This document shows positions 41,832 to 45,723 of a DNA stretch of 64,000 nucleotides, piece after piece. This DNA is from Rhodopseudomonas palustris (GTDB taxonomy: Bacteria > Pseudomonadota > Alphaproteobacteria > Rhizobiales > Xanthobacteraceae): the NCBI RefSeq assembly GCF_003591005.1, contig NZ_QYYD01000020.1:1-64000 (forward strand), written 5' to 3'. Both the position numbers and the translations under genes were made by a program. The first letter of the stretch is position 1; every line of letters begins with the position of its first letter. Under the pieces are notes generated by a model. It made no database searches, had not been told where the DNA came from, and worked only from the letters and a program-made list of their open reading frames with translations.

Positions 41832-41921
41832 CCGCCAGGCCGAGTTGTTGGCAGGCTCGTGCTGCGGTTTGGCTCAAGCGGTGTGGACGAGGCCGAGGGG
41901 CTTAGCGTTTGGGAGAACCGA

Positions 41922-42057
41922 TGTCGCTCACCCCAAAAGAGCGCTGTCCCGTCAAGAATTTTCCAATGATCTCAGGAAGGTTCCACCCATAAAGCTGCCG
42001 CGGTTCACCCCATAAAGACGTCGCATCGAGGCTCAAGAACCCTATAAGTACGTCGCG
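41922..42057 (+). repeat. Left end repeats of the mobile unit
   Basis: Four CACCCC-like motifs lie at 41,929, 41,984 (CACCCATAAAG), 42,006 (CACCCCATAAAGACGTCG) and about 42,040 (CCCTATAAGTACGTCG). They point inward and probably are transposase-binding sites. The remainder to 42,123 is AT-rich noncoding DNA. Confidence 0.75.
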
Positions 42058-42123
42058 TTTTTGACTTTTGCCGCTCCTTTGAGTTGCAGTTTTTAGCCAC
42101 CGCTGTTAGCGCAAGATTGCGAT

Positions 42124-42864
42124 CTAGGTTTGTGCCCTCGGAACCGCGTCGAAGGCTTGCGCCAGTCCAGTGATCGCTTCGTCGAGTGCACGCCGGATGA
42201 GTAGGTCGCTAATGCCCGGCACTTGGCATGCGAGCAACATCAGTTCTCGGGTGTCCTCCGTGACCCTTTGGGCGTGCGCGTCCCGATATCCGAACTGCGA
42301 CAGAATCTTGTCATCGTCACGGAGCACGACGACTTCCGCCGGTATGTCTATCGGCGACGAAGCGCCGATCGGAGTGATGCGCTCGCCCTCCACGGCGACG
42401 TCTAGCCTGACGTCGCCGGCCAGCGCTCCGCAATCGAAAGCGCCCAGCGGCACCAGCGTGCGGACCGCCACGATATTGACGAGGTTCACCGCGGCAGGAA
42501 GCGGTGGTAACGGCCGAATGATTTCGCCGGCTAGATAGCGTTGGATCAGGCCCTGGGTCGACGGCGGCGTGCGGTCGACGTTGAGGCCGATCTGACGATA
42601 GAACGCCCGGTAGGCGGCGATCTCGGGCGTCTGCGCAATCGCACTGCGTCCGGTCCCACACCAAACCCGGTGCAACGCCTCCCATTGCTCGGCAAGGTCC
42701 AGAACGCTCGTGCTCCGTCCGAGTCTCAGGCGGGCAGACCGGACATATACGCCGGGATACATTTCAGAAAACATCGGCGTTGCCGCCAGCAAAGGATAGG
42801 AGGCTTGTCGGCCTCTTTGCGCCAGGTCGTCCGTGGACGTTTCAACTGGCTCACACTTATTCAT
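42124..42864 (-). CDS. Stand-alone B3/4 tRNA-editing-like domain protein
   Basis: A 246-residue protein of the B3/4 family, the domain that in phenylalanyl-tRNA synthetase beta subunits removes mischarged amino acids. Diagnostic segments are AAYRAFYRQIGLNVDRTPPSTQGLIQRYL, LPAAVNLVNIVAVRTLVPLGAFDCGAL, VVVLRDDDKILSQFGYRD and VTEDTRELMLLACQVPGI. No catalytic or tRNA-charging domain is attached. I chose the ATG at 42864 (MNKCEPVETS) because GGAG lies 8 bases upstream. It is last in the AraC-MFS-B3/4 set inside the mobile unit. Trans-editing of mischarged tRNA or handling of an amino acid is a hypothesis. Confidence 0.87.
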   Translation of the reverse strand: MNKCEPVETSTDDLAQRGRQASYPLLAATPMFSEMYPGVYVRSARLRLGRSTSVLDLAEQWEALHRVWCGTGRSAIAQTPEIAAYRAFYRQIGLNVDRTPPSTQGLIQRYLAGEIIRPLPPLPAAVNLVNIVAVRTLVPLGAFDCGALAGDVRLDVAVEGERITPIGASSPIDIPAEVVVLRDDDKILSQFGYRDAHAQRVTEDTRELMLLACQVPGISDLLIRRALDEAITGLAQAFDAVPRAQT

Positions 42865-42930
42865 GGTAACATCTCCATCAGTCGGAAGGTCGATTGAGAG
42901 CGATCTGAATCTCGTCGTCAACGCGTGCCT

Positions 42931-44184
42931 CTACGCCTCATGACGTCGCACGAGAGAACCGATCGAAGTCGCGGCTTGCGCACCTTGCCGACTGGTCAAT
43001 TGATCACCGAACAGGAAAAGCAGGGCACTCGTGCCCAGCGCGGCAAACAGCGAGGCGACGCCGTAGCAGAGCGCGTCATCGACACCGATCCGCAGCAATC
43101 CGCCGAACATGACCGGGCCGAATACGAGACCCGCATAGGCTGCGCTCAGCATGCCGCCGGTCACTTCCGAAGCGCGGCCAGTGGGAGCTATGCGTGCAAC
43201 CTCTGCCAGAAAGACGCCGTTCCACCCTGTCGCCGAGAACCCGACGAGCACGCAAACCGACATGATAACCATCATCGAAGCTTCGATCCGGAGCATGGCG
43301 AGGCCGGCGGTGCCGAGCGTCATCAGAATCCCGACACCGACCAGAACCGATCGCGCTCCGAACAGCCGATCAGCGGCGATGCCCTGGACGAGGCGGCCTG
43401 CGATGCCGGCGATCTGGGCGACGGCGAGCACGGCTCCCGCCGAAGCCACGGATTGTCCGAGGTGATGCACCAGATAGACGACGAGAAAGGCGTTGAAACA
43501 TTGCTGCAGGGCCGAGAAGCAGAAGGCGGTGGCGGCCAGGCTGCGCAACGAAGTCGAATGCAGAACGAGCCTTAAGGACTGCTTCAACGCCATTGGACGG
43601 ATCGTCACGGTCGGATCGCGGTCCGTGTCGTATCTGACGTGGAGACGCTGCAGGGATATCGAGAGCGCCAGGGTCGCAACCGCGATGGCGGTGAGCGCAG
43701 CTCTCCAGCCGTATAGTTCGAGGAGTAGCGGCATCAACAGACCCGCCGCGATACCCCCGATCTGCATCCCGCTCTGCTTGATCGAGAACAGCAAGGCCCG
43801 GTTGCCGGGTGCGATGACGCGCGCGAGAAGATGTGAGGCGGCCGGCGTCTCCGGCCCGAAGGCAAGACCAAGCGCCACAGCCGACAGGGCGACCGGAACG
43901 ACTGATCCCGTTGCAGCGAGAAGGGCGGCTGCCGCGCCGACGACAAGGCAGATTTGTCCGGTTCGTACGGCACCCCATCGTGCAACGACGGCACCCGCCG
44001 CCAGCGCAGACATGATGGCACATCCGGAAATCGACGCGGAGTACGCACCGATCCATGAGGGATCGAGACCCATGTCGGCCGCAGCTTGCGGAGCGATCAC
44101 CGGCAGAGCGAACAGGTTCATCGACAGAGCGGCGATGATCGACGTCGTCGCAATCATCGGAAGCATCGGACTGAGACGCGGCAT
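42931..44184 (-). CDS. MFS transporter
   Basis: A 417-residue major facilitator with 12 predicted helices, beginning IATTSIIAALSMNLFALPVIAP. The loop-2/3-like sequence appears as AGAVVARWGAVRTGQICLVV, a central cytoplasmic loop is near DTDRDPTVTIRP, and GRLVQGIAADRLFGAR is the mirrored motif in the second half. The PETPAASHLLARVIAPGNRALLFSIKQSGMQIGG segment is characteristic of the CynX/NimT-like and related families. The substrate is unknown. It lies between the AraC gene (114 bases) and the B3/4 gene (66 bases), which suggests a regulator-transporter-enzyme cassette. Confidence 0.92.
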   Translation of the reverse strand: MPRLSPMLPMIATTSIIAALSMNLFALPVIAPQAAADMGLDPSWIGAYSASISGCAIMSALAAGAVVARWGAVRTGQICLVVGAAAALLAATGSVVPVALSAVALGLAFGPETPAASHLLARVIAPGNRALLFSIKQSGMQIGGIAAGLLMPLLLELYGWRAALTAIAVATLALSISLQRLHVRYDTDRDPTVTIRPMALKQSLRLVLHSTSLRSLAATAFCFSALQQCFNAFLVVYLVHHLGQSVASAGAVLAVAQIAGIAGRLVQGIAADRLFGARSVLVGVGILMTLGTAGLAMLRIEASMMVIMSVCVLVGFSATGWNGVFLAEVARIAPTGRASEVTGGMLSAAYAGLVFGPVMFGGLLRIGVDDALCYGVASLFAALGTSALLFLFGDQLTSRQGAQAATSIGSLVRRHEA

Positions 44185-44298
44185 GAGGGCTCGCCTTGTG
44201 GATTCATGAAGTGGCGGAATCGCCGCCTCTTGGGCACGAGCAAGACTGCCACGGAGCGATCCATGGTGATTGAACGTTATTGCTGTGTGCTCGGGACG

Positions 44299-45126
44299 TT
44301 ATTGCCCGGCGGCGATCCAACGTCCGGGCGAAACGCCATAGGAGCGCTTGAACAAGCGGCTGAGGTGGGCTTGGTCGGCAAACCCGACCGTGATCGCCAC
44401 CTCGGCGATCGGCTGTCCCTCGCGGAGCATGTTTCGGGCGCGCGCGAGCCGGAGTTGCACCTGATAGGCGTGCGGCGGCAACCCCGTCGCCGCGCTGAAA
44501 CTGCGCAAGAAATGGAATCGACTGATGCCCGACATCTCAGCAAGATGATCGAGTGATACGTTCTGATCGCTACAGCTGTTGAGATAATCGATACTGCGGA
44601 GGATCGCGCCGGGAAGGGGCTTTGCGGTTTGCGGTCCGGTCAGATCAGTGTGGTGACGGACGAGCCATGCCAGCGTCTCGACCAGATTGGTCTCGCATTC
44701 GAGGCGCGAAGTCGGCCTCATGAACGATGCAAACATCCGCCGCAGCAGTCCCGCTGCCACGACGTCGTCAATGACGCTCGAATGCAATTCGGGAAGTTGC
44801 ATCGGCCTATCGTAGAGGTCCTCAGCAACCCGCGTCAGCGTTTCTGCGGATGGAAAGAAATTCCAATAAGTCCAGCCGTCGGATCCTGGGTCACCGGTGT
44901 GGATTTCGCCCGGATTGACTGCGCAAATGCAGCCAGCGGGAGCGATCCGTTTCTCACCACGGTGAAGAAAGGTGTTGGCCCCGCGTTCGACAAGGCCGAT
45001 CGAAAACGTTTCGTGGCTGTGCTTCGCAAATTGATGCGTCGCGTAAGTTGCGTATACGAATTCGAGTTCGTCGAGCTGTGCCAAACGCCGATAGTCGACC
45101 TTGTCTTCAACTCGTGGTGCTCCCAT
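44299..45126 (-). CDS. AraC-family transcriptional regulator
   Basis: A 275-residue regulator with an N-terminal cupin sensor (YATHQFAKHSHETFSIGLVERGANTFLHRGEKRIAPAGCICAVNPGEIHTG) and a C-terminal double helix-turn-helix (SLDHLAEMSGISRFHFLRSFSAATGLPPHAYQVQLRLARARNML, and IAEVAITVGFADQAHLSRLFKRSYGVSPGRW). This N-terminal type senses small molecules and is common next to amino-acid exporters. It is the first gene of the cassette, and its start faces the right end of the mobile unit, so any promoter lies within 45,127-45,435. Confidence 0.93.
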   Translation of the reverse strand: MGAPRVEDKVDYRRLAQLDELEFVYATYATHQFAKHSHETFSIGLVERGANTFLHRGEKRIAPAGCICAVNPGEIHTGDPGSDGWTYWNFFPSAETLTRVAEDLYDRPMQLPELHSSVIDDVVAAGLLRRMFASFMRPTSRLECETNLVETLAWLVRHHTDLTGPQTAKPLPGAILRSIDYLNSCSDQNVSLDHLAEMSGISRFHFLRSFSAATGLPPHAYQVQLRLARARNMLREGQPIAEVAITVGFADQAHLSRLFKRSYGVSPGRWIAAGQ

Positions 45127-45436
45127 ACGACAGCTCCAATGTGCGTCTGAGCGCTACCAGGACCAGAGGTCGCAAATTCCCGAACGGAGCCTCCTGAGGT
45201 TTCCAGAAGAGACCCCGAAGCGCTGCTGTGAGAATAGGGTGGTCTCAGCCAATTTTCACCCAGAATCGCGAAGGGGGCGCTTGTATCACCACCTCAGTGT
45301 GGTCAAGAGGGCCTTTGCCCATGGCCCGAAGTCCGATTTGGGAGCTCATTTAAAGCTCCAGACAGAGAGAGCCGAAGAAGCAGATCATTCTCCCGCAGCC
45401 TCGGCCGTCGCAAAACGGGCCGAGAGCACGACATGC

Positions 45437-45496
45437 ATATGGGGTGAGTGACGACGTTGATATGGGGTGAAATGCAAGTTTATGGGGTGTCCGACA
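45437..45496 (-). repeat. Right end repeats of the mobile unit
   Basis: Three TATGGGGTG motifs (at about 45,438, 45,461 and 45,481) are the inverted match of the left-end CACCCCATA copies. ACGACGTTGATATGGGGTGAA is the inverted counterpart of the left TTCACCCCATAAAGACGTCG. The outer tip is CCGACA at 45,491-45,496. Between 45,127 and 45,436 I see no gene that I trust. Confidence 0.75.
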
Positions 45497-45640
45497 ACCG
45501 AAGCTCATGGGACTGGCCCATCGCCATATCCGTGATTCGCATAAGGTATATTATGGAATATATAGATGTAGCTTTTTAATCAATACGTTGCGCGAGTTTG
45601 CGCATGTTGGCGTTGCCGGGCCTGCGCAGCGGTGCGTCGT

Positions 45641-45723
45641 CGTAGGATGGGTTGAGCGAAGCGAAACCCATCGACGACGTGCAAGACTCTTGATGGGTTT
45701 CGCTGCGCTCAACCCATCCTACG
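45641..45723. repeat. Palindromic repeat family D
   Basis: CGTAGGATGGGTTGAGCGAA and its exact mirror TGCGCTCAACCCATCCTACG enclose GAAACCCATCGA.CGAC..TTGATGGGTTTCGC. It is an isolated full copy in the leader region between the mobile unit and the TRAP operon. The remaining spacer 45,502-45,640 is unusually AT-rich (TATATTATGGAATATATAGA) and holds no gene. Confidence 0.85.

Follow-up and report, generated by a model that had tools for sequence, protein, structure and literature searches.

How does a compact gene cassette that carries no transposase come to lie between two exact copies of a five-base duplication? This is the question raised by positions 41917 to 45501 of a 64,000-nucleotide (nt) stretch of the Rhodopseudomonas palustris genome (assembly GCF_003591005.1, contig NZ_QYYD01000020.1, positions 1 to 64,000; hereafter the window). 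A first-pass annotation had read this unit as an IS21-type element that a host transposase mobilises in trans. We conclude that it is very probably a non-autonomous, cargo-only member of a Tn7-like transposon family that homes to dif, the chromosomal recombination site. This conclusion is based on the ends of the unit and its target duplication, on a relative in which the site is empty, on complete elements of relatives whose ends match, and on a position and orientation relative to dif that these elements share.

The structural part of the first-pass annotation stands throughout, as the inverted multi-repeat ends, the internal repeat copies and the exact ACCGA duplication can all be read from the sequence, with the element proper (41922-45496; 3,575 bp) bracketed by two exact ACCGA copies (Table 1). 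With one mismatch allowed, the window contains four copies of the repeat ACCCCATANNNACGTCG, two per end and all pointing inward (mean of 100 dinucleotide shuffles, 0.00). TGT...ACA termini and a 5-bp target duplication are also what is expected of Tn7-like transposons. A domain scan bore out that the unit has three non-transposase cargo genes, all on the minus strand, and no transposase; in addition, tblastn at E<=1e-3 with the TnsA-like protein, TnsC, both TniQ proteins, an FtsH-like protein and a 214-aa protein of a complete element as queries gave no match anywhere in the window. The predicted empty site was found as well: in genome G012 (G and L numbers are our handles for genomes and loci), cobQ, which borders the unit on the left, lies next to dctP, the TRAP-transporter gene that borders it on the right; when the two window flanks are joined at one ACCGA, their alignment to G012 runs across the junction, where a single ACCG(C) is present.

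Elements with matching ends and different cargo, likewise foreseen by the first-pass annotation, are present in relatives both as complete transposons and as transposase-less units. With the whole unit as query, a search of 296 family genomes gave weak cargo matches, no sister copy of exactly this unit, and six right-end matches, four of which are flush with the last base (G014, G088, G142, G002) while two stop 7-8 nt short of it (G289, G010). A right-end pattern (<=3 mismatches) occurs at nine places in eight of these genomes, and the reversed control pattern at none. Complete members were recovered from related Rhodopseudomonas and Tardiphaga, namely in G002 (31,040 bp, exact duplication ACATC), G004 (33,481 bp, exact duplication CCGAG) and G065 (31,163 bp, duplication TTAAG).

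The operons of these three elements encode a TnsA-like protein, TnsB, TnsC and two TniQ proteins. For G002, domain matches comprise TniQ (E 2.5e-14 and 2.6e-14), a TniB-type ATPase (E 1.2e-17) and the C-terminus of a Mu-type transposase (E 9.9e-5). A profile built from six TnsB sequences and searched against the PDB matches TnsAB of PseCAST (E 1.2e-65), TnsB of Tn6677 (5.4e-50) and TnsB of Tn7 (8.5e-18), as well as entries labelled TnsB at E 9e-42, which we take to be those of ShCAST. Together, the profile matches and the operons with TnsC/TniB and TniQ identify the family with these ends as Tn7-like. At E<=1e-20, 36 of the 296 genomes contain TnsB relatives, most of them only about 30% identical; taking one genome per species, a pattern-based scan pointed to five loci, distributed over Rhodopseudomonas, Afipia, Tardiphaga and a metagenome-assembled genome of the Hyphomicrobiales.

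Where these elements land is equally telling. At the locus of the window unit, a gap of a few tens of bases separates them from an invariant 27-mer upstream of dctP. Together with its preceding base, this 27-mer is identical over all 28 bases to dif of Bradyrhizobium japonicum USDA 110 as printed in a table of PMC2731167. Allowing up to three mismatches, 212 of the 296 family genomes have this sequence, and each of the 16 genomes of the genus has it just once. As independent support, it lies at 56-58% of the chromosome length from dnaA in all five single-contig genomes. Because the window by itself has too weak a GC skew to reveal a terminus, we turned to G004 and the 200 kb flanking dif on each side, over which the skew changes sign at the site from +0.025 to -0.014. 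In the same flanks, skipping the 33-kb element, 54 GGGNAGGG octamers, which we take to be the KOPS motif, point toward the site and two point away from it. The sequence 37 nt from the right end of the window unit is thus the chromosomal dif site. To our knowledge, dif is present in nearly every bacterial chromosome and marks its terminus.

Two other candidates for the attachment site were dropped: dctP itself, once the invariant 27-mer upstream of it had proved to be dif, and an RNA gene, for which Rfam gave only sub-threshold miRNA matches lying on a palindromic repeat. At 45641-45723, the window also contains a long imperfect palindrome, probably a REP-type repeat, of which related genomes have many similar copies.

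Six insertions with such ends have been found at dif in three genera, i.e. the three complete 31-33 kb elements and three transposase-less units. All six lie 32-39 nt from dif on its XerC side with the right end toward it: the distance is 37 nt for the window unit, 36 for G004, 35 for G002, 39 for G065, 35 for the G088 unit and, by subtraction from the printed sequence, 32 for an older unit in G002. Insertion at a homing site is thus fixed in orientation and nearly so in distance. The two further transposase-less units have end repeats of the same type and different cargo, a LysR regulator and a glutathione S-transferase in G088 (~2 kb; no TnsB was found in this genome) and a TetR regulator, a cytochrome b561 and an RND pump in the older G002 unit (~6.4 kb). 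The complete G002 element is inserted at the right-end border of this older unit (L073 7731-7735), so no immunity kept the two apart. In G009, ~8.5 kb of other genes lie between cobQ and dif (L038 2100-10600), and the right-end pattern was not found in this genome.

Not every element with such ends goes to dif. The right ends in G014 and G142 lie 13 and 11 nt behind the stop codon of a B12-dependent ribonucleotide reductase gene (L069 7811 and L071 10536), a second homing site, and these genomes encode one long TniQ each (535 and 527 aa), whereas the three complete dif elements encode two TniQ proteins of 315-358 aa (taking mechanically assigned starts). The target thus follows the TniQ type, a correlation of three elements at dif versus two at the reductase gene. 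The end and the tns operon of G142 are on different contigs; we infer that they belong together because the left-end flank resembles that of G014, for whose element no exact duplication was found. G109 also encodes two TniQ proteins, the second of which is cut by the contig end, and its insertion cannot be placed.

How, then, would the window unit have reached its place? Most likely, TnsB would bind the repeat arrays at the unit ends, while TnsC and TniQ would choose the target; what is read would be dif, either bare or with XerC/XerD bound, a proposal to which the position of the insertions points. Such TniQ-guided machinery would then place insertions on the XerC-arm side of dif, some 32-39 nt away from it and with the right end facing it, and generate the 5-bp duplication. 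The unit itself has no tnsB, tnsC or tniQ of its own, with TnsC and TniQ lacking from the window and TnsB from the genome, and is therefore a non-autonomous derivative rather than a full Tn7-like member. Tn7-like machinery may have placed it there, either by acting in trans on the compact unit or by inserting a more complete copy from which the tns genes disappeared afterwards, and the unit would now be stranded in a host in which no TnsB has been found.

Between these two routes, we lean toward movement of the compact unit in trans. That dif received a full Tn7-like element, which shed its tns genes in place, with the compact unit never having moved, is a sub-case of the same explanation and a serious contender that we hold somewhat less probable. 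The lack of any sister copy of exactly this unit fits such in-place loss, as does G010, where no TnsB was detected and the genes for the 214-aa and FtsH-like companion proteins are nevertheless kept. On the other hand, none of the six companion proteins searched has left a remnant in the window, and dif harbours three different transposase-less units (window, G088 and older G002), each combining a regulator with transporter or detoxification cargo. Moreover, over its first 28 bases, the right end of the window unit agrees with that of the older G002 unit at 27 positions.

Several observations weigh against a dif-homing, trans-mobilised unit. The 91-contig draft of its own genome contains no TnsB relative at E<=0.001, which makes mobilisation in trans impossible at present unless the genes hide in gaps of the draft; the host transposase acting today that the first-pass annotation had envisaged is therefore not borne out. 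Loss of the tns genes in place is also indistinguishable from mobilisation of a compact unit. No dif lies beside the right-end matches G010:C17:34672 (L074) and G004:C1:2463143 (L146, the second in G004) within the stretches fetched. Occupancy is rare: among 43 dif sites examined, besides the separately examined window, G065 and G088, the end motif flags three (G002, G004 and G015), and as the lone motif of G015 (L012) is counted as chance, only G002 and G004 carry such ends. Within the genus, dif flanks could be seen for 13 of the 16 genomes (all except G006, G010 and G014), three of which are occupied. Lastly, no duplication was found for the G088 unit or the older G002 unit, the left termini of which are both degenerate. 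The right-end matches in G010 and the second one in G004 are possibly decayed copies.

Explanations without a dif-homing machinery fare worse. Insertions might gather near dif simply because the spot is harmless, and the region is indeed intergenic and recurrently occupied; yet, chance tolerance is very unlikely to have placed six insertions within 32-39 nt of the site, on one side and in one orientation across three genera, with elements of the other TniQ type at another fixed place. An IS21-type cargo unit mobilised in trans by host IstA/IstB, as first proposed, is still harder to sustain. A terminal TG, multiple end repeats and a 5-bp duplication fit that family too, and its cargo units resemble the present one in multi-repeat ends and a short duplication while differing in transposase lineage and target selection. 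However, the istAB that the first-pass annotation suggested elsewhere in the genome did not materialise: IstB was not found in the unit's own genome by a search that was positive in 13 of 14 control genomes. Neither unit end matched any of 72,556 plasmids at E<=0.1 (the right end of another element gave chance matches only), the complete elements with matching ends are Tn7-like, and a fixed position and orientation beside dif is unlike IS21 behaviour as we know it. That the unit is a Xer-borne element, such as an IMEX or a pdif module, recombined into dif by XerCD is scarcely credible despite its adjoining dif, given a single uninterrupted dif (<=3 mismatches), a junction 37 nt away with a 5-bp duplication, and Tn7-type end repeats.

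Table 1. Features of the window unit and of the tns-associated genes in related elements.
Feature	Sequence	Position	Strand	Remarks
ACCGA, left copy of the target duplication (5 bp)	window	41917..41921	.	single ACCG(C) at the G012 empty site
Left end: terminal TGTCGNNNACCCC and three spaced internal repeats (~41984, 42007, 42039)	window	41922..42055	+	aligned with left ends of complete elements G002, G004, G065
B3/4-domain protein, cargo (246 aa)	window	42124..42864	-	PF03483, E 6.9e-17
MFS transporter, cargo (417 aa)	window	42931..44184	-	PF07690 (MFS_1), E 6.4e-31
AraC-family regulator, cargo (275 aa)	window	44299..45126	-	PF12833, PF02311
Right end: three closely packed repeats	window	45429..45496	-	matches right ends of other elements
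ACCGA, right copy of the target duplication	window	45497..45501	.	read from sequence
Chromosomal dif site GATTCGCATAAGGTATATTATGGAATAT, 37 nt from the right end of the unit	window	45534..45561	+	28/28 identical to Bradyrhizobium japonicum USDA 110 dif (PMC2731167)
TnsA-like gene	L133	5576-6166		
TnsA-like gene	L134	9397-9987		
TnsA-like gene	L135	9396-9986		
TnsA-like gene	L136	9396-9986		
TnsA-like gene	L095	10685-11275		
FtsH-like AAA/M41 protein	L095	12082-14121		accompanies tns operon
214-aa companion protein	L095	14437-15081		accompanies tns operon

The cargo of the window unit was probably acquired from elsewhere, judging by its B3/4-domain protein, for which a search of 396 other genomes of the order gave no relative at E<=1e-30. 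Relatives of this protein are present on 14 plasmid records, all from Streptomyces and kin (the ten listed being 29-31% identical). Judging by the family names of the proteins, the cargo probably serves to sense (AraC) and export (MFS) a small molecule. The complete G002 element carries a CBASS-like pair of a CD-NTase (SMODS) and a patatin along with a TPR/PIN protein (L096 7789-10596).

The tns operons come with less familiar proteins. Neither the TnsA-like protein nor the 214-aa protein has a Pfam match at E<=1. The structural model of the TnsA-like protein is weak (pLDDT 62.9) and gave no PDB match at E<=0.001, its three best matches (E 3.5e-3 to 1.1e-2) being entries for Tn7 TnsABCD and TnsA/TnsC. 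In all six other TnsA-like proteins examined, E and K of the E-D-K residues that we presume to be the catalytic triad are replaced, with all three kept in an Afipia birgiae homologue (L137). According to the part of PMC8649781 that deals with such changes, mutations of the tnsA catalytic site abolish cut-and-paste but not replicative transposition. The residue loss may bear on the mode of transposition, which we regard as a lead and not as a result. The genes for the FtsH-like and 214-aa proteins lie beside the tns operon in G002, G014, G065, G109, G142 and, distantly, G218; G004 has kept only part of the FtsH-like gene and gives no match for the 214-aa protein. The predicted structure of the latter has a mean pLDDT of 35.5, and a search of PDB sequences returned nothing useful.

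With Tn7 and Tn7-like elements, the family shares TnsB and TnsC homologues, TniQ, asymmetric end-repeat arrays, the 5-bp duplication, insertion at a fixed distance from a conserved host site and in a fixed orientation, and defence cargo (the CBASS-like genes of G002). The homing sites named for Tn7-like elements in the consulted parts of PMC8649781, PMC10293859 and PMC11406308 are glmS, tRNA genes, comM and parE. In contrast, the home of the present family is dif, a non-coding recombination site; further differences are the two short TniQ proteins, a TnsA-like protein without two presumed catalytic residues and, for the window unit, the absence of all tns genes. Tn5053/Tn402 transposons are known as res-site hunters, which seek the res sites of serine resolvases, mostly on plasmids. 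The dif family resembles them in being TniQ-bearing transposons that seek a site-specific recombination site, but uses a chromosomal tyrosine-recombinase site at a near-fixed distance. Tn6022, described in sections of PMC10293859, is a Tn7-like element whose TnsF selector is related to tyrosine recombinases (similar to XerH) and targets comM. Unlike in Tn6022, none of the 27 proteins scanned, which cover only part of what these elements carry, matched a tyrosine recombinase family. In IMEX and pdif modules, XerCD-mediated integration takes place within dif itself and produces no 5-bp duplication. The window unit is dif-associated as these are (PMC12907356, in part), but has only one dif in its own genome and is bordered by TGTCG repeats with ACCGA.

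A bolder proposal would have the Tn7-like family sense XerCD- or FtsK-loaded dif via its short TniQ pair and, with TnsA inactivated, move replicatively, the recombination-rich terminus resolving the cointegrates and cargo-only satellites riding in trans, so that a shared slot for swappable cargo would form beside dif. We regard this full scenario as doubtful.

Among the matches listed from the open-licence literature, as far as their text was covered, we found neither a published Tn7-like element homing to dif nor a description of a non-autonomous Tn7-like element; the word dif is absent from the main text of PMC10293859. The survey of PMC8649781, in its relevant passages, takes tnsB as the minimal requirement, and cargo-only Tn7-like units are invisible to surveys anchored in this way. 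If our reading is correct, such units are shown to exist, and a transposase that homes to dif would have a landing site that is almost universal, does no harm and is easy to predict. This would constitute a tyrosine-recombinase counterpart of res-site hunting and would make the reading of a target by a short TniQ directly testable.

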